A stretch of DNA of 64,000 nt. It comes from Halovivax limisalsi. GTDB taxonomy: Archaea > Halobacteriota > Halobacteria > Halobacteriales > Natrialbaceae. The position numbers and the translations under genes are program-made. Below the pieces are notes generated by a model, which worked only from the letters and a program-made list of their open reading frames with translations, made no database searches and was not told the DNA's origin. The stretch lies in NCBI RefSeq assembly GCF_023093535.1, contig NZ_CP095757.1:3348001-3412000 (forward strand), written 5' to 3'. Position 1 is the stretch's first letter; each line of letters opens with the position of its first letter. This document shows positions 37,040 to 59,841 of the stretch, piece after piece.

Positions 37040-39283
37040 TCAATCGTCAGATGCAACTTCTTTCACGGGCAATCCACCCGTGTTCTGAATTGTGGATTCC
37101 GACTCTGACATCACTACTGGTGAAAGTTCCTCGCCGAGCACTTTCCCAGCGACTGGCGGCACAGCGTTACCTATCTGTCGGAACCAGCTAGTAAAAGATC
37201 CGAGGAAAATGTAGTCATCAGGAAAAGATTGCAATCGGGCCGCCTCTCGTGGCGTAATTCCACGATTCCGCTTCGGGTCTGCACGGTCTGGATCTGGGCG
37301 TGCCTGTTCGTAATAATCCGGAAGTACGAATCCATTCGCGTCTTTTGCGAGATGTGCTACAATCGTGGGTGAAGGTTCCGACCATACGAGCTTTCGATAT
37401 TTATCTCGAAACCTGGGGTTCTCTGCGGTTCCAACGTCATACTCAATATACTGGGCATACTCACCGTCAGAGTCAAACTTGATGTCCCATCCGGTGTCGC
37501 CCGGGTCAAGGCCCTCTTCAAATAGAATGCGATCTTTGTCCATTGGATGCTCGCGAGCCTGATGATTGAAGCAGATGTCCGTCCCCTCCTGAAGAGCATG
37601 TTCTTTCACATAGTGGCTCCTGTTTCCACGGCCCATTTCTGCAAGTACTCGACCGCCCTCGCCTCGACGCAGACGGGGAAGTCCGGATAAGCCATGGAGG
37701 ATAGATCGTTCCGAACCAGTTCTCGAAAGTCCGTTCAATAGATCTTCGACCTCATCATCGTTTTCGACAAGATCATCTCGGATACCGACGAGAAGGACAC
37801 GTTCGCGTTCCTGAGGAATGCCAAGTTCGGTCATATCCTGTAAGCAGAATTCGACCTGGTAACCTTCTCCCTGTTCGCCAATGCTGTTGAGGTCTTCAAT
37901 TATCAAGTCGATAACGCGGATATCCGTATTACCCACCTTATTGACCATCCCTTCGACGTTCTCCATGATGATGGCCTTTGGACGGAGCTCACTGACGGCC
38001 TCGACATACCTGGTGTACAGCGACGTCCGCTCGTCGTCAAGAACGCTATAGTTTTCGTCCTTCGCTCGGCGAGAACGGAAGCCAGCCTGAGAGAGGGACT
38101 GGCAGGGAGGACCGCCGACAATCAGATCGGGCTCCGGAACCACCTTCCGTATCTCTGCAGGCAGATCGATTTCTCGGACATCACCACAGACTACGTTCTT
38201 ATGGGGAATCTCCGGATGATTCAGTCGGTATGTGGCAACTGCGTCGGGTTCGACGTCAATTGCCCAGTCGATTCGGTACCCAGCCTGAGAAAGACCGTGG
38301 GAGAGACCGCCAGCTCCAGCAAACAGGTCGACTACGCTAGGACCCTCGTGTTCTTTGCGCTGCTCACGGAGCCGATGGGTGAGCAAGAATTTCCGTATCT
38401 CGCAGTTTTCACTGCAGGCGTCAGTTCCTGAACTGACTGCATGTGTCGCCAGTGCTCGATACAGTACGGGAATCTGCCGATCTATGAGTTCGTCTTCTAG
38501 GTCGGTACGGCGGTCTGGAGAACCTGCATACTCCCTAGGACTGAGAAGACCAAGAGTAAGCAGTAATTCATCAACCAGAGGATCGGCTGGCCACACCGGT
38601 TTGTCAAACGCGGTCTGGAGAAGCCACCATGCATCACCTTCCTCAATTCCCGGAACCGTTTGGAGGAATTTGACGTAATTCGTATACTGGACTCTGGAGA
38701 AGCCTCGGAGTGTAACTCCTTCTGTATAATGGGTCTCTCGCACTGTTTCGAGAAGAGTTTCCAAACGGTCGACCCGTTCGTCACTGATACCTTTCCTCGG
38801 ACTCGCAATCTGAAGCGCTTCTTCAAGGTCATCTCGTGCTAGCGCTTCGATGTCCTCCCACGTACCGTGCTCATCACGAATATTGGACACCGTCTTTCGG
38901 GGAATCCGGTCAAAAAAACGCTCCGACGGAGGGATGGTGTCGCTACCAAGAACGACAGCAGAAACTGCATCGAGGGGATCATCACTGTCGATAAGAGGAT
39001 CGTTGCACGGGCACTCGTCATCCGCCTCTCCACCATCTCGTTCGATAGCTTCATAGCGGCAAGAGCTCTCGCTTTTTGACCGGTTCCTCGCCAAGTTTTC
39101 AGGCGTTGAGCGAGGGCAACCGACGGGAGGGAAGCGCTGGCCGCGAATGTGTTCTGCAGTCAGCGTATCAATAAGAAACTCGATGTTTTCGAGAACCAGC
39201 TGCCTGTGAAGATTACGTTCAACATCTGACGCAGTTCGTACCAGCTCCGAAGGAGACCTGCAAGAAGGCACCGATCCAGACAT
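37040..39283 (-). CDS. Cytosine-C5 DNA methyltransferase with N-terminal HhH-GPD-like domain
   Basis: 747 residues from the ATG at 39283 (a GTG at 39298 is also open). Methyltransferase motifs: I VDLFAGAGGLSHG (~327), IV GGPPCQSLSQAG with catalytic Cys (~391), VI MENVEGM (~439), VIII PQERERVLL (~490), X IGNAVPP (~707). Upstream (~150-300) is a helix-hairpin-helix/GPD-like domain: FLQTVPGIEEGDAWWLL, PADPLVDELLLTLGLL, and a CSENC pair, the pattern of endonuclease III-type glycosylases with the conserved Asp but an incomplete Fe-S cysteine set. It makes 5-methylcytosine in DNA. It is divergent from the glycosylase gene at 39400, sharing a ~115 bp promoter region. The domain fusion is unusual. 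Confidence 0.85.
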   Translation of the reverse strand: MSGSVPSCRSPSELVRTASDVERNLHRQLVLENIEFLIDTLTAEHIRGQRFPPVGCPRSTPENLARNRSKSESSCRYEAIERDGGEADDECPCNDPLIDSDDPLDAVSAVVLGSDTIPPSERFFDRIPRKTVSNIRDEHGTWEDIEALARDDLEEALQIASPRKGISDERVDRLETLLETVRETHYTEGVTLRGFSRVQYTNYVKFLQTVPGIEEGDAWWLLQTAFDKPVWPADPLVDELLLTLGLLSPREYAGSPDRRTDLEDELIDRQIPVLYRALATHAVSSGTDACSENCEIRKFLLTHRLREQRKEHEGPSVVDLFAGAGGLSHGLSQAGYRIDWAIDVEPDAVATYRLNHPEIPHKNVVCGDVREIDLPAEIRKVVPEPDLIVGGPPCQSLSQAGFRSRRAKDENYSVLDDERTSLYTRYVEAVSELRPKAIIMENVEGMVNKVGNTDIRVIDLIIEDLNSIGEQGEGYQVEFCLQDMTELGIPQERERVLLVGIRDDLVENDDEVEDLLNGLSRTGSERSILHGLSGLPRLRRGEGGRVLAEMGRGNRSHYVKEHALQEGTDICFNHQAREHPMDKDRILFEEGLDPGDTGWDIKFDSDGEYAQYIEYDVGTAENPRFRDKYRKLVWSEPSPTIVAHLAKDANGFVLPDYYEQARPDPDRADPKRNRGITPREAARLQSFPDDYIFLGSFTSWFRQIGNAVPPVAGKVLGEELSPVVMSESESTIQNTGGLPVKEVASDD

Positions 39284-39399
39284 AAGCGTCTCTTTCACAA
39301 TGATATGATTTAAACCTCCTGGTCACGCGGCCCACGACAATCACGAAAGGCCCGCTAAGCCCTCCGCCGAAATGGCGCGGGGAGTCACCAGAGATTGAA

Positions 39400-40242
39400 A
39401 TGTTGTATTCGCTTACAGAGACCGGACCTCTCAAGCGGAAACAGATCCTATCTGAAGTGATGTCAACTGTCGATCTCCCATTCGGTCGAACCCGGGTTTC
39501 CGTTGCTGAGCTGAGAGCGGGGATTGACGTTGAGACTGCCAGTGAAGAACTATTGTCAGCTGACGTATCGAATCCCGAAGAGGCAATTGAGTCGTTCATC
39601 GAGTACCTTCCGTCACTACTCGTCTGGCTTGAAGAGCATGGGCGAGAGTATCCGTGGCGTAGTACTACTGATCCCTGGCGGATTTATGCAACCGAAATAT
39701 TACTACAACGGACGCGGAGCGACGCGGTCGACGAGATTTACGCAGATTTCTTCACGCGGTATCCGGATCCCGGAGCTCTTCTTATAGCCGACGAGGACAG
39801 CCTCCGAGACACCGTTCGCCCTCTCGGTTTCGTCAATCATCGGGAACGTACGCTGCGAGAAGCGGCGGAGCTCTGTGTCGAGGAGCATAACGGAGACGTT
39901 CCCGAGGATATCGATGCTCTGCAACGACCATGGCGGGTAGGGCCGTACACTGCTCGTGCCAGTTTGATATTCGCGTTCGGAAAGCCTCTGGCGATCGTTG
40001 ACACCAATACTGCGAGGATAACCGGCCGAGTTTTCGATTATCCTCTCCCCTCTCAACCACACAAAAGTAGCAGTTTCTATCGACTCCTCGATGCACTCGT
40101 TCCCGCCGACCCATCACTGGCACGAGCGTTCAACCTGGCATTGCTCGACCTTGGAGCTTTGATCTGTACTGGCGGAAATCCGGACTGCAATAACTGTCCT
40201 CTGGCACCAGCCTGTACGTACGCTGCGGCGAACCGTGATTAA
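39400..40242 (+). CDS. HhH-GPD glycosylase, predicted T:G mismatch type (MIG-like)
   Basis: 280 residues (an internal ATG at 39460 is an alternative start). EndoIII/MutY fold: YPWRSTTDPWRIYATEILLQRT, then the hairpin RVGPYTARASLIFAFGK (~176-195), the catalytic Asp in AIVDTNTARI (~201) and a 4Fe-4S set C-x6-C-x2-C-x5-C near the C terminus (~257-274). At the position where EndoIII has the catalytic Lys and MutY a Ser, this protein has Tyr, as in the thymine-DNA glycosylase Mig.Mth from a methanogen restriction-modification plasmid. It probably removes T from T:G pairs arising by deamination of 5-methylcytosine. Divergent from a C5 methyltransferase gene, which fits exactly. Its stop overlaps drmC tail-to-tail. 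Confidence 0.85.
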   Translation: MLYSLTETGPLKRKQILSEVMSTVDLPFGRTRVSVAELRAGIDVETASEELLSADVSNPEEAIESFIEYLPSLLVWLEEHGREYPWRSTTDPWRIYATEILLQRTRSDAVDEIYADFFTRYPDPGALLIADEDSLRDTVRPLGFVNHRERTLREAAELCVEEHNGDVPEDIDALQRPWRVGPYTARASLIFAFGKPLAIVDTNTARITGRVFDYPLPSQPHKSSSFYRLLDALVPADPSLARAFNLALLDLGALICTGGNPDCNNCPLAPACTYAAANRD

Positions 40243-41183
40243 TCGAGTAGTGATACCGTCGTCGCGCCTTCCGAATTCAGCAAGAAGTCCACGAGGTCCA
40301 CGAACCCTTCGACAGGCGGCCCTTCCAAGAGAACGCCGGATTCGAGATAGTGCTCGAATCCATAGTCAGTGACATTCGCACTCCCGATGTACGTCGCGGC
40401 GTCGTCGAACAGGATGATTTTCGCGTGGAGAGTGAATGCAGGGGTCGCCCCATCCTGCCGGCGTTGTTCAGGTGGAGTTCCGGTACTCCATCGGGTATAG
40501 TCGATGAATGTGAGCAGGGATCTGTCGATGTTCCGTTCTCGAGCGGCTTCGGCGAACGACTTCAGCACGGCGTGGTTGTAGGAGGCAGAATCGGTGAGGT
40601 ACCGGGACACCACCCTGACTTCTACACCGCGTTCCACGGCAGCGAGCAGTACCTCCTCAAGGTGAGAGAAGCCTTCCTCCTCGAAGAACGGTGCCAGCAG
40701 GATAATAGACTCCTCCGATCGTTTAATCTGTCGTGTGAGCGCCGGCATCAACCACGACATCCCGAAGGACGTGGGACTTACATTCTCGAATGCCGGGTCA
40801 GACGGGAACGTGACCAGTGGTGTGGCCCGGGTCGCCGGAGGCTGGCGTTCCTGATAGGCATTGACGCTACGGGCCGCGTACCGCGCGGTCTCGAAAATCT
40901 GACGGCATATCTCGACATCGGCGCGGTAAGAACTGTTACTGACGTTCGTTTCGAACGATTCCCGTTCGACAGCATCAGTCTGAGAAAGCTGGCGAAATAC
41001 GTCCGTCGTGGCCGACACGGGCACGTCGGTTTGATTCGCGATCTCCGCCGGAGTTACCACTTCTTCACGGCCTCCGGATAGCACCAGCAGCCCCTCAAGC
41101 TGAGAGAGAAGCTTCTCGTCGCGGTCCACGTATTCGGCGATTGCCAGGGGCAGCCAGTTCGATTCAGATCCGTCGTCGTGCAT
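40239..41183 (-). CDS. drmC: DISARM DrmC, phospholipase D-fold protein
   Basis: 314 residues, ATG at 41183. An N-terminal winged-helix-like region (~30-75, VVTPAEIANQTDVPVSATT) is followed by a PLD domain with one clear HKD motif, LHAKIILFDD … GSANVT (~253-275). PLD-fold DrmC is the third core component of the DISARM anti-phage system; in other DISARM systems it is reported dispensable for some phages. It is 50 bp downstream of drmB in the same orientation, so the core operon is drmA-drmB-drmC. Only one HKD half is visible; dimerisation would complete the site. Confidence 0.82.
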   Translation of the reverse strand: MHDDGSESNWLPLAIAEYVDRDEKLLSQLEGLLVLSGGREEVVTPAEIANQTDVPVSATTDVFRQLSQTDAVERESFETNVSNSSYRADVEICRQIFETARYAARSVNAYQERQPPATRATPLVTFPSDPAFENVSPTSFGMSWLMPALTRQIKRSEESIILLAPFFEEEGFSHLEEVLLAAVERGVEVRVVSRYLTDSASYNHAVLKSFAEAARERNIDRSLLTFIDYTRWSTGTPPEQRRQDGATPAFTLHAKIILFDDAATYIGSANVTDYGFEHYLESGVLLEGPPVEGFVDLVDFLLNSEGATTVSLLD

Positions 41184-41233: not shown

Positions 41234-43192
41234 TTATAGCGTCCAGTATCCATCGATGTTCTTGTCAGTGTTTGGCCGACTCCCGAACAGGTAGTCGCGG
41301 GAGAGTACCTGATTGAAGTACGAACAGCTGATCTCACTGACGTGCAGACATGAGAGACACGCACCTCCTCGTTGGGAGCAGACAGGATCGTAGACGCACT
41401 CATTCCCGTGAGTCTCGGCCTGCCCCAGGAGGTTATCGAGCTGCTGTTCAACCATCGTGTGCATTCCTCCGATGTTGAACTCCTCCCGGTTGTTCGCGTA
41501 GATGACGACAGAGAGTGCGCGCGGGAAGAGGAATTCACTGAGGTTCGTGCGGTCGAATCCACTGATGGTACTGGCCTGCTTCAGCAGGATGTGACTCAGT
41601 GTGTGGACGAGCTGGAACACGTGTTCTGTCACCTGTTCTTCTACCGAGTCGTCGAGGTCCGTCTGGAACTTTCCGTATCGTTCGACGGGCGCGAGATGGT
41701 TAAGCAGAAAAGCCCACTGCTCATCGGTGGAGAGTGACTCGATCTCGCTTCGGGCATGCTGGAGTGCAGCGTCGTCACGGTTGCGTAATTCCGGAAGCAC
41801 GATATCTCCGTTGACCGCGTTCGGGTCACTCGTACCGGGGATGTTGAGCGCGAGCCACAGCAGAACCTGCACGGGATCGAGGTCGAACTGAACCGCCTCC
41901 GTTTCAGACGTATCGACGAAGATCGGGGTTCCATCTCCGTCACTTGCGCTCTGAGAGAACGCGTTGATTCGTGCTTCGCTTTCTTCACGGCTACCACGGG
42001 TATAACCGTAGACGAACGTCTGTACGGGGAAGTCCTCGATGACGCGAACGTCGTCGAATCCAAGGGACTCCAGATCGTCGTGGTAGCTGTTGATGCGGTC
42101 AGCTTTGTCCGTGAACCCGCGATCCCGAGCGTCCGACTCGAGTTCGGCCAGCGTATCCGTCGTGAGCGACTCGCGGCTGAGGACGTACTGAAGGATCTCG
42201 TCACCCGCTTCCGTGAGTTCGGAGGTTTCGCCGTCTGCATCCAGTGCGAGTGTCTCGCCGAGACGCTCCAGAATCGTCTGACTCTCCAGCGTTCCTTGCT
42301 CGCGGAGGTAATCTCTCGCCTCGTCGAGCGTGGTAATGTCGTCGTGCGTGGTATATATTTCTACGACCTTCTCATCGTCCACCTCCACCTGACCGGTTCG
42401 CTGGTGCAAGCTGACGTCCTGGAGGGACTGCGCATCGGATAGACCGAACAGTTTGGCAATCGCCTTCTTTGCGCCGTCCTCGGAGTTCCGAAGATGTCCG
42501 ATGCCCGCGGTGTGCAGATTCACCGTTGAGAGGTAGTGCGGGTAGAAGACACTCCCTGCCCGATGGACCGTTGTGTACATCCCGTCGTTCTCATCCGCGC
42601 CGGGCGCTCTGTAGTCACATTTACAGTTCTGATAGTTCCGGATCGGGGTTTCCCAGGTGCAGTTTCCGACCTCACAACTCCAGTGGAAGTTCCGGACGCG
42701 CTGACTGTTCCGGCGATTAAGGCTGACGTGCTGATCACCGTGAGTCGGACATTTCTGTGGGTACAGACGGCGTATCTCGCCACAGGTGTGGACGCTCACG
42801 AACTGATACTGCTCCAGATCACCATCGCAGCCAGACCGTTTACAGGTGAGGTCGGGATTGTCCTCCTTGACCTCGTCTGCGGTGTAGTACCCGTGGACTT
42901 TGTCGCACTTCTGGCACTCGTAGGTGGTGGGGAACGGCTCGGCGCGAACGGCCTCAGGGACGCCGAAGTGATAGTGGTCGGTGTTGTTCGAGACGAACCC
43001 GTTCTGGCCACCATCCCAGTTTCGGACGCGTGCGAGAACGCGTCCGAGTATGTAGTCTTTGCTGACGGTACCACTCGCGTCGCCTGTCTCAAGTCGCGTG
43101 GTCTTCCAGATGCCTCGCTGTCCACTGTAGTCGAACGTGTTCTCGGGCAAGAACTGGTAAAGCACCTGTGACTTGCTGCGTTCCATTGACAT
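41234..43192 (-). CDS. drmB: DISARM DrmB (DUF1998 protein)
   Basis: 652 residues from the ATG at 43192, 2 nt after the drmA stop, which implies coupled translation. A zinc-binding N-terminal part (YECQKCDKVHG, CGEIRRLYPQKCPTHG, and later CKCDYRAPG) and a C-terminal DUF1998 domain ending CVYDPVCSQRGGACLSC … CSYF (~600-625) are visible. DrmB acts with the helicase DrmA in DISARM to load onto foreign DNA ends and restrict unmethylated phage DNA. The order drmA-drmB-drmC and the DUF1998 signature make this call firm. Confidence 0.88.
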   Translation of the reverse strand: MSMERSKSQVLYQFLPENTFDYSGQRGIWKTTRLETGDASGTVSKDYILGRVLARVRNWDGGQNGFVSNNTDHYHFGVPEAVRAEPFPTTYECQKCDKVHGYYTADEVKEDNPDLTCKRSGCDGDLEQYQFVSVHTCGEIRRLYPQKCPTHGDQHVSLNRRNSQRVRNFHWSCEVGNCTWETPIRNYQNCKCDYRAPGADENDGMYTTVHRAGSVFYPHYLSTVNLHTAGIGHLRNSEDGAKKAIAKLFGLSDAQSLQDVSLHQRTGQVEVDDEKVVEIYTTHDDITTLDEARDYLREQGTLESQTILERLGETLALDADGETSELTEAGDEILQYVLSRESLTTDTLAELESDARDRGFTDKADRINSYHDDLESLGFDDVRVIEDFPVQTFVYGYTRGSREESEARINAFSQSASDGDGTPIFVDTSETEAVQFDLDPVQVLLWLALNIPGTSDPNAVNGDIVLPELRNRDDAALQHARSEIESLSTDEQWAFLLNHLAPVERYGKFQTDLDDSVEEQVTEHVFQLVHTLSHILLKQASTISGFDRTNLSEFLFPRALSVVIYANNREEFNIGGMHTMVEQQLDNLLGQAETHGNECVYDPVCSQRGGACLSCLHVSEISCSYFNQVLSRDYLFGSRPNTDKNIDGYWTL

Positions 43193-43194
43193 TG

Positions 43195-46100
43195 TTATCG
43201 GTTGTTGTAGGTGTTGAGGATATCCTTGTACTTCCACTCGGGATCGATTGGGAGCTGTTCGTCGACGTCACGGAGACTCCGCATCGGAGATCCGGGGAGG
43301 CGTTCGCTCGTCCACTGCCGGTCACTCAGCTGGACCTCAGAAATTGCACTGCGGGTGAGTTGCCTGACGTCGTCACTGAACTCCGGTGGAACCTCCGACC
43401 CACCGTACATGTCCACGAGAAGGTTCTCGAGGTCTACGTCATCAACTGTTGAGAGGAAATCTTCGGCACGGTCACCGAAGTACATCAGTTCCCCATCGTC
43501 GGTGTACATGTAGTGGTTAAGCAGGAGCGACATGAACAGCCCCGGTTGCGTCCGCTTGACGCTGTTCTTCGCCCACCGGTTCACAGAGACGGGTTCGACG
43601 AGCCGGTCGAGGAACTGGTGGTACTTCTCGAAGAAGTGGTAGTGACTCAGGTCGCGTTCCCGGATGGGGTGGAGAATATTGAACACGAGGCCGGGGTGCG
43701 AGCGACCAGCCCGGGAACTGGACTGGATGTACTCAGCAGTGGCGCGCGGCATCCCGAAGAACACCATCATGTTGAACCGGTCGACGTCCACCCCGTGGCT
43801 GATCATGCTGGTAGCCGTAACCGTATTGGGCCGGTACGCGAGTAGCCAGGCGAGTCCTTCGCGAACATCAGAGGACGCTGCGCGAAGAGCGACCCGGAAC
43901 TCCGTCCGCGATGTCCTGTCCTCATCGAGTTCTGCCGCGAGAACATCACGGAGTTTCATGATATCCGGAATTGCCTCCTCGTCGACGAGGTCATCGTCTG
44001 CAAGACTGTACAGGAGCGACTCGTCCTCGTCCTCTTGCCACGGGTTGTCGAGCTGATCCAGGATCGTCTGGACCTCCTCGAAAGGTGTCCCGCCCGTCAT
44101 GCGCTCGGAGTTGAGTGGCGGACGACCCTCGCCACGGAAATAGGCGTTCAGCTGGCTGACGAACGACTGATCCAGCCGGTCACCATCCTTCTTTGACAGC
44201 AGATAGGTGAGGCTCGTGCTGTAGAGCGTGAGAATGTCGATGATATCCGCGATGGAGTCCGTAGACAACGCCTCGCTGGTGTCGGTTCCTTCTAGAGCGA
44301 CCCCCGTGAGGAGGTCTTCGGGGGATTCCATCGCCATCAGGAGGAGATCCTGGACCTCTTCGTGGAAGGCGAAGAGGACGTCGATGATGGAGTTGATGTG
44401 CGTCTTCCCGTGCGGGATGAGCCCCATGTAGTAACGCTGTGTCTCGGGCTGTTCCATCGCGTAGAAGTTCTCGCGGAGGAAGGGGCCCGGCGACGGGAAG
44501 CGCTCTGCGGGCCGAAGGAACAGGTGGTACACCTGGTCTTCGTACGCCGTGATCGTCGCCGTGGGGGCAAGCACCTTGGTCTTTCCGGCATCGACAATCT
44601 CCTGAAGCGTCTGGACGCCCGTCTCGTAGTGCCCGTCGAAGCTTCCCACGCTCTCCTCCAAGAGGTGGAGTTCGTCGGGAACCATCAGCGACGGCGCCGG
44701 GTCATACACCTCAATTGGCGATGCCATCATCTCGAACTCGTCCTTGTCGATGTCACAGCCGTACTTCTCCGTACACTCATCGAGGCTGGCAAAGCCGTGT
44801 GTCGGACACTCGTACTCCATTTCCCCAGTCAGAAGATGGGCCATCTTCCGCTGGTAACCGACTGCGGTGATCTTGTCGATGGTTCCGGCGAGAATGCTCG
44901 GCGCGTACCGGTAGAGTTCGTTGTCGACGACGTGAATCGGGAGTTCGTCCTCAGCATACACCTCCTGAGCAGTGGTCTCGCGCTTTTGCCAGTCGCATTC
45001 GAATGGATTCCCGGTACAGGCATGTGCGAGACGGATATCTTCAGTGACTCGCATCTCGACCCGGGCGCCACACGCCGGACAGCTCGGAACGACCTTCGAT
45101 TCCTCTCGGAGGCTCTCATCCTGCTTGTATCGGGTGTATTTGTCGTTATTGTATCCCGTAAGTGCGTTCGGCGTGTTCTTCTTCCCGACAAGGAAACCGA
45201 CACTGAAGGGACGAGATGGGTGGCTACCGATGACGTCCTGGTCACGGCGGACGAGATCGGCGTACATGATGGTCTCTGACATCCGCTGGAGTTGTTGAAG
45301 CGACAGGAGCCGGAGCGGGAATCGCGTCCACGTCGTCACCCCGAAGTGCTTGCCGCGGATGCGATCGAAGAACATGTTCCAGACGGCAACACCGAAGAAC
45401 GCCTCGGACTTCCCGCCGCCAGTCGGGAACCACAGCACGTCGACGACGTCGAGGGCCCCTTCGGCCTCCTCGAACCGCTCTGAGAGGTCCTCCTCGTCAC
45501 GCCAGCTGATCTCGTCCCACTCCTCGTACTCGCGGCCCGCGATATCGGGGACGAGCATGACGATGAAGACGAGCTGGAACAGCCGCCACGTGTCGAAGTC
45601 GTGCATCCGGTCCATGGACTCGTTCATCAGTTCGAACGCGCGACCGACCGTGTCCGGGTGTTCGCGAAGCACACGAATTCCCCGGCGAAATCGGATGATT
45701 TCGCGCTCGAACGACGCTTTGTCGTCCTCGAAGTCCTCGCGGTCGGCGTCCGTCCAGTCGCCGCGCTTGCTGTATTCTCTGAGGGCTTCCGGGTAGGCGG
45801 TTTCGAGGTACGTGTCCATCGCATCCGCGACCGATTCCAGCACATCGTAGCCGCCACCCTGGAGGTCAGCGAGTTCGCTGAACGCGGGATTCACCCCCCG
45901 ATCAGCAGACTCGTAGACGAGCTGCCGGTACTCGGGGATAAACTCCGTTCGAAGGTGGTCCGTGTGCGGGTCCGCACGAGGTGCGGATCGACCTGGCGTG
46001 GCACCGCCGTGCGTCTCCACGTAGTCGGGGGCGGTGATCGTGCAGTTCCGTCCGTGACCCCAGAGATCCCGGTTGTAGCGAAAGTCTTCGGGAAGCGGGT

Positions 46101-46989
46101 CGAACGTGAATGGAGTAAATTCAACATCACCGTCTGCTTTGAGGTCGAGCTGAACCTCGAACAGCGTTGGGTCACGGAGCGTGTATACGTAGTCCCGGAT
46201 CGACTGCGTGCCAGTGTTCGTGACCTCGATGTCGAGCAGGAGTTCGTCACCAGGACTCTCCCGGTCCTCGGTGGCGATGATCTCTATCGACAGATCCCAG
46301 TCTGGTACCGCCGGTGTGCCGTCTCGTTCCTCGAGGTACTCGTTGTACTCGGTCTCGTTCTCGAGAACGTGGTTCGGGACGTCCTCGTCGGGTTTCTCGT
46401 CACCGTTGTCGAGGTAGATATCGTCGCGTGCCACGGCCCGCTCGCGAGCATCCTCCACGGCGGTTCGAATCGCTTCGGAGGCGCGCTCACGAACGACTTC
46501 CGGGGTCGTTCGGGTACCGCCGGCGAGGGCCTCGAAGGGGATCTCGATCGAAGGCACCGCCAGTTCGAGACGTTCGAAAACAGGAAGGAGCGTGGTGTTT
46601 TCGATCTCGTCATCGTCGTGATCTGCCAGTGAGACGTACTCCTCGCGTCGGTCCATCTCCTCGTAGGTCGGGTTAACACGCACCCATACGCTCCCCGTGA
46701 TGTCGATTGAGAGTGTATCACCCGCAGACCCGTTTCGGACGCGAGTCATGGTCCCAACGGTGCTGGGCTCCATCTTCGACTGGAGGTCATCGTCACTATC
46801 TTCGAGTTCGCTGTTCTCTTTCGGCGCCAGCGCTCCGGCGAAGAACTGGTCACTCGGGGCGTCTCGCTTGATGCGTGTATCATCGAGATTCCCGCTGACG
46901 CGGTCCGTGATGCGTTTTCGGAGGTGACGAGCGATGCGTTCCTCGTCGTCGGGAGGTCCGCCATCCCGACCGATCTGTCGACCCGGCAT
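43195..46989 (-). CDS. drmA: DISARM DrmA helicase
   Basis: 1264 residues. I use the ATG at 46989 rather than the longer open frame to 47178, because an AT-rich TTAAATAA box lies 30 bp upstream, as expected for a leaderless haloarchaeal transcript. Superfamily 2 helicase motifs: Walker A FPTGGGKSEA (~525), DELHLLEE (motif II, ~771), SHGVDVDRFN (~1066) and SSSRAGRSHPG (motif VI, ~1098). A cysteine set (CPACGARVEM, CTGNPFEC, CPTHG … CTEKYGC) lies between. DrmA with DrmB senses and unwinds invading DNA. First gene of the leftward drmABC operon, divergent from drmMI. Confidence 0.9.
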   Translation of the reverse strand: MPGRQIGRDGGPPDDEERIARHLRKRITDRVSGNLDDTRIKRDAPSDQFFAGALAPKENSELEDSDDDLQSKMEPSTVGTMTRVRNGSAGDTLSIDITGSVWVRVNPTYEEMDRREEYVSLADHDDDEIENTTLLPVFERLELAVPSIEIPFEALAGGTRTTPEVVRERASEAIRTAVEDARERAVARDDIYLDNGDEKPDEDVPNHVLENETEYNEYLEERDGTPAVPDWDLSIEIIATEDRESPGDELLLDIEVTNTGTQSIRDYVYTLRDPTLFEVQLDLKADGDVEFTPFTFDPLPEDFRYNRDLWGHGRNCTITAPDYVETHGGATPGRSAPRADPHTDHLRTEFIPEYRQLVYESADRGVNPAFSELADLQGGGYDVLESVADAMDTYLETAYPEALREYSKRGDWTDADREDFEDDKASFEREIIRFRRGIRVLREHPDTVGRAFELMNESMDRMHDFDTWRLFQLVFIVMLVPDIAGREYEEWDEISWRDEEDLSERFEEAEGALDVVDVLWFPTGGGKSEAFFGVAVWNMFFDRIRGKHFGVTTWTRFPLRLLSLQQLQRMSETIMYADLVRRDQDVIGSHPSRPFSVGFLVGKKNTPNALTGYNNDKYTRYKQDESLREESKVVPSCPACGARVEMRVTEDIRLAHACTGNPFECDWQKRETTAQEVYAEDELPIHVVDNELYRYAPSILAGTIDKITAVGYQRKMAHLLTGEMEYECPTHGFASLDECTEKYGCDIDKDEFEMMASPIEVYDPAPSLMVPDELHLLEESVGSFDGHYETGVQTLQEIVDAGKTKVLAPTATITAYEDQVYHLFLRPAERFPSPGPFLRENFYAMEQPETQRYYMGLIPHGKTHINSIIDVLFAFHEEVQDLLLMAMESPEDLLTGVALEGTDTSEALSTDSIADIIDILTLYSTSLTYLLSKKDGDRLDQSFVSQLNAYFRGEGRPPLNSERMTGGTPFEEVQTILDQLDNPWQEDEDESLLYSLADDDLVDEEAIPDIMKLRDVLAAELDEDRTSRTEFRVALRAASSDVREGLAWLLAYRPNTVTATSMISHGVDVDRFNMMVFFGMPRATAEYIQSSSRAGRSHPGLVFNILHPIRERDLSHYHFFEKYHQFLDRLVEPVSVNRWAKNSVKRTQPGLFMSLLLNHYMYTDDGELMYFGDRAEDFLSTVDDVDLENLLVDMYGGSEVPPEFSDDVRQLTRSAISEVQLSDRQWTSERLPGSPMRSLRDVDEQLPIDPEWKYKDILNTYNNR

Positions 46990-47033
46990 AGTGTAATCAG
47001 GAAAATACACCCCATTTGTTAAATAACTTCGGG

Positions 47034-47079
47034 TCAGACCTGCGCCTCTTTTAGATTCGTAGAATCGGCGCAGGTCTGA
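47034..47079. promoter_or_regulatory. 13-bp inverted repeat between drmA and drmMI
   Basis: TCAGACCTGCGCC (47034-47046) and its exact complement GGCGCAGGTCTGA (47067-47079), 20 bp apart, lie just upstream of the drmA TATA-like box. A second smaller palindrome, AACAATTGTT, is at 47174-47183 on the drmMI side. The position in the divergent promoter region suggests binding of a regulator, or autoregulation by methylation. Confidence 0.6.
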
Positions 47080-47250
47080 ACAGTAGCGCTCGCGCGGATA
47101 CGTGCGTGCTCGAGCGCTGCGCGTTCGCGTTCGCGCACGCGCTATGCGAAAACTGTCCCGATAGATTATATTCAACAATTGTTATATGGCAGTAGTGTTC
47201 GTTGTACAGTAATACACAGGTAGCGTTTGCCTGGCCCCAGATCACCACAG

Positions 47251-50200
47251 ATGGCTCAACAATCTCACCCATACCGAACGAACCGAGACCTCTTTTCAAA
47301 TCACTATCTTACAGAGCATCTCCGGCAGACCGAACCCTGGCAGGACGTGGACCAGGATGAGGTCCGTGACACCTACGAAGAGATCCGCGACCTCTGGAAA
47401 GAGAAGAAAGGCCGAGTAGAAGACTACAACGAGGCCCAGCTGGAGCGAAACTTTATTCGTCCCATCTTCGAAATTCTCGACGTTCCGTTCGAGATTGAGG
47501 AAACGGTGATGCGAAACGCTCGCCGCCCAGACTACGGGTTCTTCCCGAGTGCGGATTCGGCGGACGCCGCCTTTGATCGGGACGACTTCTACGCAGAAGC
47601 GGTTGCAGTTGCAGACGCCAAGCGATGGGGGCGTAAGCTCGACACCCGTGGTGAAGAGAAGCGAGACTTCGAGAACCCGAGCTACCAGATTCACGCCTAC
47701 CTCCAAGAGACCCCGGTTCAGTGGGCAGTATTGACTAACGGCAAGCAATGGCGGCTCTACTACGGACCGACTAGCCACCGGCTGGACTCCTACTTCGAGA
47801 TCGATCTGCCGGAAATCCTCCAGTATGTTGAGGAGGAGGGAGAACTCGAGGATTTCAAGGACTTCTATCTCTTCTTCCGACAACAAGCGTTCCTTCCGGA
47901 CCAGTCTGGTGATTGCTTCCTCGACAACGTCTACGACGAATCGAGCGTCTTCGCGGAGGCGATCGGTGAGGACCTTCAGGACAACATATATGAGGCGATT
48001 CGGGTTCTCGCGGAGGGTTTCTTAGACTCGAACGATGATCTCGGCGAGGACGACCTGCCGTTAGTCCACGACAGTTCGCTAATCTATCTGTATCGCCTCA
48101 TTTTCGTCCTGTATGCGGAGAGTGAGGGACGTGACCTACTACCCACTGACAACGAGATCTACAGTGAGGGGTACAGCCTGAATGAACTGAAGCAAATGGT
48201 TGCCGACAATCGCGACGAAACGAAGCGGCACTATCAGAACTGGCAGACAAAACTCTGGGACCGACTGGAGGAGCTATTCGTCCTTATCGACCAGGGAAGC
48301 CAGGGAGAAAATATCCCGAAGGACCAGCTCTACATACCGGCCTATAACGGTGGACTCTTTCGAACCAACCCTGACCCAGACGATAGCGAAGAGGCCCAGT
48401 TCCTCGCGACTCACGAGGCCGACGACGCCCATCTCGCAGAGGTGATCGACCTCCTGACACGCCGTGACTCGGACGAGGGCGACGGCCAAGTTTTCGTCGA
48501 CTACTCGTCGCTCGACGAACGTCATCTCGGATCGATTTACGAGGGTCTTCTCGAGTACAAGCTCGACGTCGCTGATGAGCCATTGACAGTCGAGGACGGC
48601 GAGTACTCCCCTGCTGATGGTGATGACGACATCGCCGTCGCTGAAGGCGACGTGTATCTCCGTACGGACGCTGGTGAACGGAAGGCCACGGGGTCATATT
48701 ACACGCCTGAGTATGTCGTCGAGTACATCGTTGACGAGACGCTCGGACCACTTGTCGACGATATACGAGAGGAGCTGGTCGGAACGGAGTCGTATCATGA
48801 GGGTGGCTTTGCCGGAGAGTTCGCCGAGCGCGTGTTTGACCTGAAGGTACTCGATCCGGCGATGGGTAGTGGGCACTTCCTCGTCAACGGGGTCGACTAC
48901 CTCGCACGAGAGATTATCGACGCACAGGAACGGCAGGATCAGCAAGCAGTCAAGAGGGGCGATGAAGACGCAATCAGCGATCCCCGGACCGAAGAAGGAG
49001 AACTCAGAGACATCAACTGGGCACGTCGAAAAGTTGCTCAGAGGTGTATCTATGGTGTCGACCTGAATCCCCTAGCAACGGAGCTGGCAAAGGTGTCGCT
49101 GTGGCTGCGTACCCTCGCTGCCGAGCAACCGCTTGCGTTCCTCGACCACCACCTTAAGACTGGAAACTCGCTCGTCGGTAGTGACATCGAGGATGTGCTC
49201 TCCAACGACAACGACGGCGCCCAGTCAGGCCAGACGCGGCTCTCGGATTGGTTGGACCAAGCTCGCCAGCGTGCCATCGAGCACGTCATGGAACGCTTTG
49301 CTGACCTCCTCAGCATCGACAACGAGACCCTCGAGGACATTAAGCAAATGGAAGAAGTATACGAGGAGGTTCGTGACGATCCTCTCTACCAGCACCTTCT
49401 CGCTATGGCAAACGTTCATACTTCAGCGCATTTTGACTTGGACGTCCCCCAAGACGCCGAAGAGCAAATGGCTGAAGCACTTCGAGACGGCTCGTGGAGC
49501 AAGATTGAGAACGAAGATTGGTTCCAGAGTGCCCAAGATATTGCTGAAGAGGAGTCCTTCTTCCACTGGGAGCTTGAGTTCCCTGTTGCTTTCTACGACA
49601 ACGAAGGTGAGAGGAAATCTGACGCCGGGTTCGACGCCGTCATCGGGAACCCCCCGTACGTCTTCATCGATTCTATCCCCGAGCACCATCGGGATTATTA
49701 CCGAAAGGTTTCTGCGACATGGGATTACCGATACGACCTGTACGGCTTATTTACCGAATACGGAATGGAGTTAACAAAACGCGGGGGGGAATTCGGATAC
49801 ATAATCCCTCACAGCCTACTCAACAACAACTCCTTTGGCGCTCTCCGGCACTATCTCATAGATAGATCGAATGAGATAGACGTGATTGACTTTACTGAGC
49901 CAGTCTTCGAGGATGCATCCAACGAGACGATGATTCTTCGTATTCGCAGAAGTGATACGAAGTCAAATACCCCAATTCTACGTGGTGCCCTAATCGAGAC
50001 GTCTGAACTGGCTGTAGTAGAGAAGTATTTGACCGAGTTCCCTGCCTCGGCAATCGAGAATCTCCCCGGGAATCCATTCGTTGTTCGTGGGGGAGAGTGG
50101 ATCTGGAAACTTATAGAGACGGACGAAACGAGGTTCCTTGGAGAACTCGTCGACACCGTCCAAGGGCTCAGAACAGGGAACAATACGAAACGATTGAGCG

Positions 50201-51381
50201 ACTCGAAAGAAGACGGGCGTTATCGCAAGGCAATCGCAGGCGAGGACATTGATCGGTACGTCTGTGATTGGTCCGGTACATGGGTAATGTATGATAGGGA
50301 TATCCTGAGCAAAGACCCCGCAGCACGGCCTCGTGAACCCAAATTCTGGGAGGCGGAAAGAAAGATCCTCGTTCAAGAAATACGGAACGTACACCTTGAC
50401 CAACGCATTGTCGCCGCTATAGATAATCACAAACATATCGGATTGAATACAACGAATGCGATTATACTAGAAGACGAATCACTCAGTCTTGACTACCTAA
50501 TGGGTATACTCTCTTCAAATCTGATCAACGAGTTCTTTCGGGCTTGTTTTGTCGATAATCACATCGCAACTCAGTATTTGGAAGCTATCCCAATTCCCAC
50601 TCTCAATGTACAGAACCAGGAGACACCAGAGCAACTGTCTACTGGGATAGACCAAATTAAAGAAACGGGAGACTTTACGGAGGTTCAAACATACCTGCGG
50701 GAAAACAATCCGTTGAGGGCTGGTGACGACGCCGCTCACGCAATTATCTCGGAGCTCTCAAGTCTGATTTCGGAGATGGCGAACGACCGTCACTCTCTCA
50801 ACCTCTCCCTCATTGACTACCTCGGCAACTACGCTGAAGGTCCGAAGCTCCCAAATATCGGCCAGTTCCAGCCGACATCACCAAACATTCTCGATGCAAC
50901 GACAGATGAGTATGAGAAGCTCCAAGTTGAGAACGTCCACGCGAAGCGTGACGGTCACGCCGTAACTATTGAGGCGACGGCGAGGTACAAGCCCAAGAAC
51001 GATGAGGCGTTCGAGACGGACCAGTGGGGTTACACAGAAACAGAGTACTTCGATGCGTTCACACTTACGGACCTCACCGATGAGGAAGCTGTACTCGTGG
51101 AAGCGTTCGTGCCAGTTGCTGTCGAAGAGGAAATTGGTGGGTTCCGCGACAATGCCACGAAGACGAACTCCCTTATCGATCGCCTGAAGGACATAATGCT
51201 CCCAGATATCGACGATGTTCAGGACGATCTCGAACACTACATCAAGAACAAGGACCGAGCAGAGGAACTTGATGGGAAGATAGAGAAGACCAACCACCTC
51301 ATTGACGAGATTGTTTACGACCTCTACAATCTCACTGACGAGGAGATTGAAATCGTGGAGGGGGCAGCAAGCAGTGAGTGA
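47251..51381 (+). CDS. drmMI: DISARM DrmMI-type adenine methyltransferase with nuclease-like N terminus
   Basis: 1376 residues from the ATG at 47251; an upstream TTG is less likely. N-terminal ~60-220: RRPDYGFF (~91) followed by AVAVADAKRWG (~117) and WRLYYGP resembles the PD-(D/E)xK nuclease-like N terminus of type I/IIG enzymes. Then a large N6-adenine methyltransferase domain: motif I VLDPAMGSGHFLVNG (~532), motif IV IGNPPYVFID (~800, NPPY), followed by a target-recognition/helical C terminus. It methylates adenine in host DNA, marking self for the DISARM core. Divergent from drmA, and the next genes downstream are decayed. Full-length and without frameshift. Confidence 0.85.
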   Translation: MAQQSHPYRTNRDLFSNHYLTEHLRQTEPWQDVDQDEVRDTYEEIRDLWKEKKGRVEDYNEAQLERNFIRPIFEILDVPFEIEETVMRNARRPDYGFFPSADSADAAFDRDDFYAEAVAVADAKRWGRKLDTRGEEKRDFENPSYQIHAYLQETPVQWAVLTNGKQWRLYYGPTSHRLDSYFEIDLPEILQYVEEEGELEDFKDFYLFFRQQAFLPDQSGDCFLDNVYDESSVFAEAIGEDLQDNIYEAIRVLAEGFLDSNDDLGEDDLPLVHDSSLIYLYRLIFVLYAESEGRDLLPTDNEIYSEGYSLNELKQMVADNRDETKRHYQNWQTKLWDRLEELFVLIDQGSQGENIPKDQLYIPAYNGGLFRTNPDPDDSEEAQFLATHEADDAHLAEVIDLLTRRDSDEGDGQVFVDYSSLDERHLGSIYEGLLEYKLDVADEPLTVEDGEYSPADGDDDIAVAEGDVYLRTDAGERKATGSYYTPEYVVEYIVDETLGPLVDDIREELVGTESYHEGGFAGEFAERVFDLKVLDPAMGSGHFLVNGVDYLAREIIDAQERQDQQAVKRGDEDAISDPRTEEGELRDINWARRKVAQRCIYGVDLNPLATELAKVSLWLRTLAAEQPLAFLDHHLKTGNSLVGSDIEDVLSNDNDGAQSGQTRLSDWLDQARQRAIEHVMERFADLLSIDNETLEDIKQMEEVYEEVRDDPLYQHLLAMANVHTSAHFDLDVPQDAEEQMAEALRDGSWSKIENEDWFQSAQDIAEEESFFHWELEFPVAFYDNEGERKSDAGFDAVIGNPPYVFIDSIPEHHRDYYRKVSATWDYRYDLYGLFTEYGMELTKRGGEFGYIIPHSLLNNNSFGALRHYLIDRSNEIDVIDFTEPVFEDASNETMILRIRRSDTKSNTPILRGALIETSELAVVEKYLTEFPASAIENLPGNPFVVRGGEWIWKLIETDETRFLGELVDTVQGLRTGNNTKRLSDSKEDGRYRKAIAGEDIDRYVCDWSGTWVMYDRDILSKDPAARPREPKFWEAERKILVQEIRNVHLDQRIVAAIDNHKHIGLNTTNAIILEDESLSLDYLMGILSSNLINEFFRACFVDNHIATQYLEAIPIPTLNVQNQETPEQLSTGIDQIKETGDFTEVQTYLRENNPLRAGDDAAHAIISELSSLISEMANDRHSLNLSLIDYLGNYAEGPKLPNIGQFQPTSPNILDATTDEYEKLQVENVHAKRDGHAVTIEATARYKPKNDEAFETDQWGYTETEYFDAFTLTDLTDEEAVLVEAFVPVAVEEEIGGFRDNATKTNSLIDRLKDIMLPDIDDVQDDLEHYIKNKDRAEELDGKIEKTNHLIDEIVYDLYNLTDEEIEIVEGAASSE

Positions 51382-53979: not shown

Positions 53980-54325
53980 GTGACAGGTTGCGATTGCGGG
54001 TTCGAAGTTGGAGGCCCGTGAGTTTCGTGGGCGGCGAGGTCGAAGGTAAACCACCGACCGAGTGGACTATGCCTAGTAACAATATTGGCCGACATTAGGC
54101 AGGAAAAGCGCCTGAGTACCGTCGTCAACAGAGCTTAAGGTAGTGGTTCGCTGCTCGCAAAGCAAGAGTTCGATTCCCCCGAGCGTTTAAATCTCCGTGC
54201 TCGTGCCGCGGAACGCGATCTCGCCCATCAACAGGGCTGGTTCGTCGCTCTGAAGAGCAGTCGAATCTTTTTCACGCCACACACCAGGTCAAAGGCGCCT
54301 GTGACAGGTTTCGGATTCACATCAT
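53980..54325 (+). pseudogene. Decayed 5' fragment of the DrmD-like SNF2 gene
   Basis: Corresponds to the first ~350 bp of the intact gene at 55506. It starts at an equivalent GTG (53980), reads TGCDCGFEVGGP, then a TGA, against TSCSCGFEVGNR in the intact copy. It continues with clear DNA similarity (for example the GAGTTCGATTCCCCCGAGCG stretch near 54170) until it abuts the stop of the intact HNH gene. Only the N terminus remains and it has stops and indels, so it is non-functional. Confidence 0.85.
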
Positions 54326-55371
54326 CACAGCCATGAAATCCCGGCGTTCAGCACTTCGAGGAATAATGGCCGAATCTGAACGTTAGGAGGTAACGCTAGT
54401 CGTTCGCCCTGTTGTTTGACGATGGTTTCCTTGAGGAACGGGTGTGCAGGGTCAAAAGAAGGACTGACCCGTATTCGATAGTCGCTATCGATCGTGAACA
54501 GGTTTGCATCGAACGCTCGATGGTGGAGCGAGTTCATGACGAATACATTTTCGGGGTGTTCGGCGAGGTCGGGGCGCTGGCTCCGGGAAAGAATGTGAGC
54601 AAGGTCGAGCAAAGGCTCTTCCTGGATGCCGGTCACGGTACATGCATATCCGTACCGCTCGAACGTTTCAGCCCGGAACGCATCGCTGACAACCACTTCC
54701 GATCGTTCGTACCGCCGAAGGTTTCCTCCGACCGGATCGAGCAGCTCCCCGGTTGGCCACTGCTGAACCTCTCCGGTTCTCACCCACTGCTTCCAGACCT
54801 CCGGTGCCTGCTCGGCGCTGTTCGTCTGCGCGCGGTCGTGGAGCCACGATACAGGAACGGACTGCGTGTTGAGAATCGAGAAGTGAAAAAGGTAGTTTGG
54901 AATCTGGGCACCCGAATCGTCCTGATACGAACGCACCTCCAGATGGTCGGGGACACAGAGGCCACAGAACTCTACGGTCCCCGACTCCGGCTTTCGGAAT
55001 ACGAGGACCGGTGGTACTTCTTCGCGCCGCCCCGAGGCTTTCCTGTCGAAGGCTTCCTTGATCTTATCATTCTGATCAGACTCGTCGTAGGGGTTGTTCG
55101 CCTTCGCATCGCCCCAGTAGCTGATGTACCCCGAATCAACAGCCAGGGTATCCTCCCACGGATCATCGTGCTGGGAGACTCCTTTATCGTTCGAGACGAG
55201 TACTAGGGCCGCAGGAATGTCGGAACGGTTAGTACCGAGGTCGCGAATTCCGCCGACGTTCTTAATCCCACTATCCAGCGGTCCGCGAATCCAGCGCAAG
55301 AACTGATCTTCCTGTTTTCTGTAACTCCCTGTGTCACGATATCTGTTGCCAATAGTGTATGTGGAGCTCAT
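54325..55371 (-). CDS. HNH endonuclease with SRA-like (AspBHI-N type) reader domain
   Basis: 348 residues from the ATG at 55371 (the longer frame to 55494 is antisense to the SNF2 5' region). The C terminus has the HNH_2-type motif: CTVTGIQEEPLLDLAHILSR, ENVFVMNSLHHRAFD, giving His/Asn/His. The N-terminal half (VGGIRDLGTN, YISYWGDAKANNP, PPVLVFRK, FCGLCVPD, NYLFHFSILN) follows the pattern I know from the SRA-like domain of the 5-methylcytosine-dependent endonuclease AspBHI. So it is probably a type IV, modification-dependent restriction enzyme. It is back-to-back with the SNF2 gene, sharing ~130 bp. Reader specificity is inference. A decayed copy lies at 52050-52790. Confidence 0.76.
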   Translation of the reverse strand: MSSTYTIGNRYRDTGSYRKQEDQFLRWIRGPLDSGIKNVGGIRDLGTNRSDIPAALVLVSNDKGVSQHDDPWEDTLAVDSGYISYWGDAKANNPYDESDQNDKIKEAFDRKASGRREEVPPVLVFRKPESGTVEFCGLCVPDHLEVRSYQDDSGAQIPNYLFHFSILNTQSVPVSWLHDRAQTNSAEQAPEVWKQWVRTGEVQQWPTGELLDPVGGNLRRYERSEVVVSDAFRAETFERYGYACTVTGIQEEPLLDLAHILSRSQRPDLAEHPENVFVMNSLHHRAFDANLFTIDSDYRIRVSPSFDPAHPFLKETIVKQQGERLALPPNVQIRPLFLEVLNAGISWL

Positions 55372-55471
55372 AGTTTCAGTAATTGGGAGTATTTGCCTTA
55401 AATGGTTCCGCGAAAAAGGCCCATATCCGGAATTATACCGATCTTCGGTTCCTGGATGTGAATTCCGCGAA

Positions 55472-55479
55472 GATATTAA
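55472..55479 (+). promoter_or_regulatory. TATA-like box of the SNF2 gene
   Basis: GATATTAA lies 27-34 nt upstream of the GTG at 55506, the spacing expected for a leaderless haloarchaeal transcript, and supports that GTG over an upstream TTG. Confidence 0.5.
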
Positions 55480-55505
55480 GAGGACAAGCCCCATCTGTTT
55501 CAGCA

Positions 55506-58494: not shown

Positions 58495-59841
58495 ATGGAA
58501 ACGCGGCCTTCTGCTATTGACCTGTTCTGCGGTGCCGGAGGCCTTAGTCAGGGCCTCCGGAAAGCGGGCTTCGACGTCCAGTGGGCGATTGACAGCGATG
58601 CTGCTGCCGTAGAAACCTACCGGCAGAACATCGGTGACCACGTGGTCGAAGCCGATATTCGTGAAACCGATCCAGCGACCGACGGTCCGGACATCAAGCC
58701 AGGTGATCTCGACCTTGTGGCAGGGGGCCCGCCCTGCCCTTCGTTCTCCACAATCGGTCGAGCGAAACTTGAATCTCTGGAGGAGAGGTCGACCGAAAAT
58801 GATAACCGGAACGTCCTCTACCGCGACTTTCTCCGATATGTCGACTATTTCGAGCCGAGTGCCTTCGTTATGGAGAACGTCCCGGGACTGCTCAACGACA
58901 CTGCGCTCGTTGAGACAGATACGATTCAGCAGTCACTTCCGACCGATACAGCATCCCCCGGGAAACCGGTTGGTCAGGAGACGCCCGTCCCTGAAATTAT
59001 TCTTGAGGAGATGGAGGCGCTCGGCTATCACGCGGATTGGGGGGTGGTCGATGCGGCCGACTTTGGAGTGCCACAGTATCGAAATCGTGTCTTTTTCACT
59101 GGTGTCCGTTACGGGAATACGCTCCCAGACCTCGATCAGTGGAGAACCCACCGTGAACCGAAGAATGAGCAAGAACGAACCATGCGAATCCGGAGGGAAC
59201 CTGGAGCGTTCACAGATTCCTCTCAGACCACGTTCGACACGGGGCCCGCTCTTCCCCCCTTCACTCGTGGCGAGACGACCAGACTGCCATACCTGACTGT
59301 TGCTGACGCGATTATGGACCTGCCTCCGGTTTCCCCGGGAGGAGGTATGCCGCCAGGCGAAGCGACTGAATACACGCTCCCTCCCGTCTCCCCGTATCAG
59401 AAATGGTTACGCGACATTCCTGAGGACGAGGACTGGGAAGACCAGGTACTGCGCAACCACACTTGCCGATGGCACAATCACCTCGACCTCTCGATCTACA
59501 AACTGCTTGGCCACGGTGTGGGATGGAACATCGGGGATGTGAGTCAGGAGCTTCAGCCCTATCGAGACGACGTCTTTCCGGACAAATATAAGAAGCAGGA
59601 TCCGTCGAAGCCGGCGTCAACGATTCTTGCACATATTCAGAAGGACGGACATATGTTCATACACCCGACAGAGGCTCGTTCACTCACTGTCCGAGAAGCA
59701 GCACGGTTACAGTCCTTCCGTGACTCCTACTGGTTCCCCGAGAGCAGAACGAAGGCATATCGGCTCGTCGGGAACGCTGTGCCACCGAGGCTAGCTCACG
59801 CCGTGGGAAAGGCAATTAGAGATGTTCTTCTGGAATACTAG
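58495..59841 (+). CDS. Cytosine-C5 DNA methyltransferase (second copy)
   Basis: 448 residues, ATG 46 nt after the SNF2 stop, probably same transcript. Motif I IDLFCGAGGLSQG (~8), IV GGPPCPSFSTIG with catalytic Cys (~80), VI MENVPGLL (~126), VIII PQYRNRVFF (~192), X LVGNAVPPRLAHA (~427). A target-recognition region lies between VIII and IX. It makes 5-methylcytosine and is only distantly similar to the enzyme at 37040, with no HhH extension. C5 methyltransferases (DrmMII) belong to class 2 DISARM, so its presence beside a class 1 set is mixed. Faces the second SNF2 gene, with stops 12 nt apart. Confidence 0.88.
   Translation: METRPSAIDLFCGAGGLSQGLRKAGFDVQWAIDSDAAAVETYRQNIGDHVVEADIRETDPATDGPDIKPGDLDLVAGGPPCPSFSTIGRAKLESLEERSTENDNRNVLYRDFLRYVDYFEPSAFVMENVPGLLNDTALVETDTIQQSLPTDTASPGKPVGQETPVPEIILEEMEALGYHADWGVVDAADFGVPQYRNRVFFTGVRYGNTLPDLDQWRTHREPKNEQERTMRIRREPGAFTDSSQTTFDTGPALPPFTRGETTRLPYLTVADAIMDLPPVSPGGGMPPGEATEYTLPPVSPYQKWLRDIPEDEDWEDQVLRNHTCRWHNHLDLSIYKLLGHGVGWNIGDVSQELQPYRDDVFPDKYKKQDPSKPASTILAHIQKDGHMFIHPTEARSLTVREAARLQSFRDSYWFPESRTKAYRLVGNAVPPRLAHAVGKAIRDVLLEY

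Follow-up and report, generated by a model that had tools for sequence, protein, structure and literature searches.

Mig.Mth, the T:G glycosylase of a plasmid restriction-modification system in Methanothermobacter and a protein of the REBASE V. type, is encoded by a gene adjoining the C5 methyltransferase gene M.MthTI, and the pairing of a C5 methyltransferase with a Mig-type glycosylase is already known from this case. HhH-GPD glycosylases are also tied to 5mC biology in MBD4 and ROS1, which combine the glycosylase with a reader domain or other parts; to our knowledge no glycosylase of the MBD4/ROS1 type is fused to a methyltransferase itself. Dcm has been tied to very short patch repair (PMC8557920), and the Dcm/Vsr pair likewise couples a repair function to a C5 methyltransferase, but Vsr belongs to the PD-(D/E)XK superfamily of nucleases (PMC12458937) and is not a glycosylase. 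DrmMI, DrmMII or both are present in DISARM operons, and the ATPase of Serratia DrmAB is lowered by 5mC-containing DNA (PMC9142583).

A locus on the 3.89-Mb chromosome of Halovivax limisalsi (GCF_023093535.1, NZ_CP095757.1) was analysed within a window of 64,000 nt, from whose first letter all window coordinates are counted. It resembles Mig.Mth/M.MthTI in placing a 4Fe-4S HhH-GPD glycosylase (P0001) beside a C5 methyltransferase (P0002), and differs in that it is haloarchaeal, lies in a DISARM-like island and has a methyltransferase with a predicted HhH-GPD domain of its own. The two ORFs lie at the coordinates given in a preliminary description of this DNA and are divergent, as it had stated:

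37040-39283, minus strand: P0002, C5 cytosine methyltransferase with a predicted N-terminal HhH-GPD-fold domain (ORF open from GTG 39298; PF00145 at aa 322-725, E 4e-57)
39284-39459, no strand: divergent intergenic region of 176 bp between P0002 and P0001, measured from the probable starts
39460-40242, plus strand: P0001, most likely a Mig-type HhH-GPD/4Fe-4S glycosylase (ORF open from 39400; PF00730, E 1.4e-14)
39934-39960, plus strand: hairpin RVGPYTARA of P0001, with Tyr183 at the position of EndoIII Lys and Mig Tyr126 (residue alignment)
39997-40017, plus strand: VDTNTAR of P0001, with catalytic Asp201 equivalent to Mig D144 (residue alignment)
40165-40215, plus strand: 4Fe-4S cysteine set C-x6-C-x2-C-x5-C of P0001, aa 256-272 (sequence)

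P0001 probably starts at ATG 39460 (260 aa), because in its homologues in-frame stop codons precede the conserved start at LPFGRT, and P0002 probably starts at ATG 39283. Stop codons that had seemed to lie inside the glycosylase of three other loci (L066, L070 and L077) were dismissed, their positions being upstream of the true start. The region has a GC content of 53-57%, compared with ~66% for the surrounding chromosome, and this low-GC island is adjoined at 13490-36820 by a tyrosine integrase and type IV conjugation ATPases, a block that is likely an integrated conjugative element.

Affinity of the stand-alone glycosylase

The preliminary description had read the Tyr of GPYTA, the Asp of VDTN and the full 4Fe-4S set in P0001, and alignment with Mig.Mth and MutY bears this out, with Tyr in the hairpin and no EndoIII-type catalytic Lys. 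It had also taken the Tyr/Asp pairing to mark Mig, and that reasoning fails: the host's own MutY (L003; GVGPYTANA...VDTNVKR) has Tyr and Asp as in P0001, both residues are identical in Geobacillus MutY, and Bacillus MutY carries the Tyr at the catalytic position (PMC2714593). Being common to host and Geobacillus MutY, the signature is not diagnostic of Mig and was rejected as proof of it.

The Mig pocket positions F27/E42/R47/A50/Y126/D144/L187 were compared across the proteins. P0001 reads Y/E/R/S/Y/D/L against F/E/R/A/Y/D/L in Mig, its R104, S107 and L246 occupying the R47, A50 and L187 positions, whereas host MutY reads F/E/Q/L/Y/D/N and Geobacillus MutY reads L/E/Q/V/Y/D/E. Specificity is determined by A50 and L187 in Mig versus V45 and Q182 in MutY (PMC2714593), and P0001 does not have the V45/Q182-type adenine pocket of MutY but Ser and Leu instead. 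It therefore matches Mig at the Tyr, Asp, Arg and Leu positions and departs from it at A50, where P0001 has Ser and its relatives have Gly or Ala. P0001 also lacks the C-terminal MutY (8-oxoG) domain, ending in an 8-residue tail compared with 86-114 residues in haloarchaeal MutY (92 aa in the host protein). Its best PDB match is Mig.Mth (1kea, 4.1e-34), with MutY close behind (2.8e-32). The PADLOC model PDLC03398 is matched at 1e-34 and describes a type II nicking endonuclease family, which we take to be the REBASE V. proteins. On a phylogenetic tree the P0001 clade is firm (100/99) and MutY separates from it (99/95), while the grouping of the P0001 clade with Mig.Mth, which is a long branch, has weak support (81/60). 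P0001 is under purifying selection.

It is improbable that P0001 is a MutY paralogue, an adenine glycosylase for A:8-oxoG or A:G captured by the island. The catalytic Tyr and Asp and the 4Fe-4S set are shared with MutY, MutY structures score just below Mig, and the best NCBIfam model of P0001 is TIGR01084 (mutY), but the score is 144.7 against a cut-off of 286.5. The missing C-terminal domain, the Mig-type R, S and L where MutY has Q, V/L and Q/N/E, the separate MutY clade, the presence of a MutY already in the host, and a genome context that links P0001 to C5 methyltransferases all argue against it. P0001 is most likely a Mig-type T(U):G glycosylase, because of its pocket residues, absent MutY C-terminal domain, top PDB match and genome context. 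The earlier conclusion that a Mig-like glycosylase is dedicated to the C5 methyltransferase can be kept on these grounds, and not on the Tyr/Asp argument first given for it.

The N-terminal domain of the methyltransferase

P0002 possesses C5 methyltransferase motifs I, IV (PCQ), VI (ENV), VIII, IX and X, and its N-terminal ~310 residues are identified, by sequence profile and structural model, as a second HhH-GPD glycosylase-fold domain. Neither this domain nor the DISARM context figured in the preliminary description.

38342-39283, minus strand: predicted fused HhH-GPD-fold domain of P0002, aa 6-319 (profile against EndoIII, AlphaFold2 model, Foldseek)
38579-38602, minus strand: KPVWPADP, with D239 as the catalytic-Asp equivalent of the fused domain (ungapped alignment to EndoIII VDTH)

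The domain is revealed only by an 18-member profile and fold search, and neither Pfam nor a single-sequence PDB search gave an HhH-GPD match for the window copy. The profile of the 18 fused domains matches Deinococcus EndoIII at 1.1e-5 and EndoIII-sized ORFs in the genomes at 1e-9 to 1e-11, two of which were translated and both read GVGxKT...VDTH. An AlphaFold2 model of the domain (pLDDT 76, pTM 0.75) matches EndoIII (Foldseek 1.1e-4; VIA Z 12.8, 216 residues, rmsd 5.3); a Z near 13 is possible for helical proteins from arrangement alone, and here fold and sequence evidence concur. The model also matches ROS1, MutY, Mig and OGG1, and the matches listed are HhH-GPD proteins. In the full-length AlphaFold2 model of P0002 the N-terminal domain and the Rossmann core are confident and the remainder of the methyltransferase is not. 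Purifying selection acts on both halves of P0002, and dN/dS, at about 0.12-0.15 in the nearest pairs that allow comparison, indicates that the fused domain is under constraint. Four conserved cysteines early in the domain (39118-38999; aa 61, 80, 96 and 98), spaced C-x18-C-x15-C-x-C, are a possible metal site. At the other end of the protein, an acidic tail closes all aligned fused methyltransferases (37043-37057 in the window; L106-L115), in which DD is invariant and mostly SDD or TDD.

The catalytic positions of the domain are unevenly preserved. Neither Lys nor Tyr is present at the Lys/Tyr position in any of the 18 members, where the residue is variable, and the second Gly of the hairpin is mostly lost. 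The Asp equivalent is kept in the window protein and in 15 of the 18 overall, and is G, S or N in the other three. A possible but doubtful reading is that P0002 writes and repairs in a single polypeptide: at methylated sites the fused domain would act as a monofunctional T:G glycosylase, or would sense T:G or 5mC, and could replace P0001, which would then be a second and partly redundant copy. The fold and the Asp are consistent with this, the latter being kept in every fusion locus without a glycosylase match in the stretch read, and the missing Lys is compatible with monofunctional HhH-GPD enzymes such as MBD4; against it stand the three members without Asp, which include a locus where P0001 is a remnant only (L081), and the degraded hairpin with its unconstrained Lys/Tyr position. 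A relationship between Asp loss and the presence of P0001 was considered and rejected, as the numbers are too small and L081 contradicts it.

It is highly improbable that the fused domain actively removes 5mC as a ROS1-like eraser glycosylase and so makes the mark reversible. The Arabidopsis ROS1-5mC complex is among its best fold matches (Z 12.4), but scores no better than EndoIII in a fold common to all HhH-GPD enzymes; the domain has no Lys for lyase chemistry, and a writer-eraser fusion would be self-defeating unless regulated.

The DISARM-like island and the distribution of its genes

The P0001/P0002 cassette is assigned, by homology of the neighbouring genes, to a divergent class-1 DISARM-like island in which DrmA, DrmB, DrmC, DrmD and DrmMI homologues are clustered as in class 1:

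40239-41183, minus strand: DrmC-like PLD nuclease (PADLOC DrmC 1e-13; NCBIfam DrmC below cut-off)
41234-43237, minus strand: DrmB-like protein (PADLOC DrmB 2e-52; NCBIfam below cut-off)
43195-47178, minus strand: DrmA helicase (PADLOC DrmA 9e-150; NCBIfam below cut-off)
47227-51381, plus strand: DrmMI/PglX-like adenine methyltransferase (PADLOC DrmMI 1e-99)
54325-55494, minus strand: gene with an AspBHI N-terminal domain and HNH
55383-58448, plus strand: DrmD/BrxHII-like SNF2 helicase (strong PADLOC match)
58495-59841, plus strand: second C5 methyltransferase, MT2, without a fused domain
59853-62906, minus strand: second DrmD/BrxHII-like helicase

DrmA, DrmB, DrmD and DrmMI are matched strongly in PADLOC and DrmC moderately; as the matches to the NCBIfam DISARM models stay under the curated cut-offs, the island is called divergent and class-1-like. 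Unlike class 1 DISARM, it adds a C5 methyltransferase fused to an HhH-GPD-fold domain and a stand-alone glycosylase. Two DrmD/BrxHII-like helicases (55383-58448 and 59853-62906) share the one island. The AspBHI-N/HNH gene is likely a modification-dependent restriction enzyme, although its island produces C5 methylation of its own; at another locus (L090) an AspBHI-like match adjoins a truncated glycosylase. An MT2-type methyltransferase directly adjoins the fused one in four loci (L077, L079, L082 and L083), and the two are possibly methyltransferases for one asymmetric site.

The fused domain is present in 17 further genomes among the 292 haloarchaeal genomes, always joined to the methyltransferase and at about 33-68% identity. 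The fusion is present in each of the 14 genomes whose DrmA is close (57% identity or more), and of the 18 genomes with the fusion 17 have a DrmA match of some kind, an association with Fisher p values of 1e-20 and 2e-15 that ignore the relatedness of the genomes. A pattern-based scan of limited reach found 10 fusion loci in GTDB r220 contigs, all in Halobacteria, and 246 genomes of the phylum contained three fusions, the fused-domain matches there being otherwise EndoIII-sized ORFs only. Across the GTDB contigs, PLSDB plasmids and phylum sample the fusion was found only in Halobacteria, and none turned up in IMG/VR.

P0001-like genes are present in 17 of the 292 genomes. The glycosylase lies divergently beside the fused methyltransferase in the window and six other loci (L066, L069, L070, L074, L077 and L078), about 16 kb from it in L080, and next to an MT2-type methyltransferase in L084-L089, so that MT2 homologues elsewhere pair directly with a P0001-type glycosylase and nearly all loci of the P0001 clade have a fused or MT2-type C5 methyltransferase directly adjacent. 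C5 methyltransferases are also nearby in a neighbouring Mig-like clade (L092, L099, L101, L103 and L104), and no C5 methyltransferase or DISARM gene match lies within about 10 kb of chromosomal MutY in any of 20 loci. The common partner of the glycosylase is therefore C5 methylation and not one type of defence, given that the clade also adjoins MT2 without DISARM and that none of the MutY loci is so linked. L085, L087 and L089, whose neighbours were listed, have further conserved genes beside the glycosylase and MT2, and in L087 two of these genes resemble restriction endonucleases (RE_BsaWI at 5e-9 and, weakly, EcoRII-C). At L087:4845-10273 these stand with a P0001-like gene, an MT2-type methyltransferase and a possible EVE-domain protein, apparently forming a type II restriction-modification system that includes a glycosylase of its own; L085 has similar genes, as does L089 in part.

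This linkage bears on the idea of a restriction glycosylase, in which P0001, by itself or together with the fused domain, would be a defence effector removing bases from viral DNA instead of a repair enzyme. P0001 does lie within a DISARM-like island and base-excision restriction enzymes have a precedent in the PabI family (PMC10273834), but association with C5 methyltransferases irrespective of defence type, and a pocket that fits a mismatch repair enzyme, make such a role unlikely.

Glycosylase copies are broken or split in two genomes (G034 and G092), reduced to a remnant in G260 and undetected in seven other fusion loci. An intact glycosylase is thus missing from 10 of the 18 fusion loci within the stretch read, which indicates that it is dispensable rather than obligatory. 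The preliminary rationale, that the enzyme lets a high-GC host tolerate 5mC deamination, does not survive the low GC of the region or the rarity and dispensability of the gene, which in several genomes is missing or broken beside the same methyltransferase. At L067:4961-5386 the interval from the fusion to drmC holds a PD-(D/E)XK gene (PF11645) instead of the glycosylase.

Proposed role and significance

The observed genes, domains and fold, their conserved linkage and the Mig-type pocket make it fairly probable that this locus provides modification and repair for a haloarchaeal class-1 DISARM-like island, with P0001 repairing 5mC deamination. The C5 methyltransferase would write 5mC as part of the self mark of DISARM here, and spontaneous deamination would convert 5mC to T:G mismatches, mutating the site and erasing the mark. 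P0001, for which we infer T:G activity and a repair role, would flip out and excise T (or U) opposite G via Tyr183, Asp201 and Glu99, and ordinary base excision repair would then restore C:G. The fused domain of P0002 would most likely assist P0002 in binding or scanning DNA or in recognising target sites with a mismatch, and may be a monofunctional glycosylase in its own right.

A literature search that reached few subscription journals, and that included PMC12458937, found no description of an HhH-GPD-C5 methyltransferase fusion or of a DISARM glycosylase. Within the literature searched, the regular occurrence of this fusion in a DISARM lineage seems to be undescribed. Self-marking by 5mC has a mutational cost to an immune system, and with a glycosylase-fold domain built into the mark-setting enzyme of one DISARM lineage, self-repair of that cost by a prokaryotic defence system becomes testable. 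If true, the immune system carries the repair of its own mutagenic mark inside its modification enzyme, which would add a component to haloarchaeal DISARM and would give prokaryotes a parallel to the connection that MBD4/TDG makes from 5mC to T:G repair.
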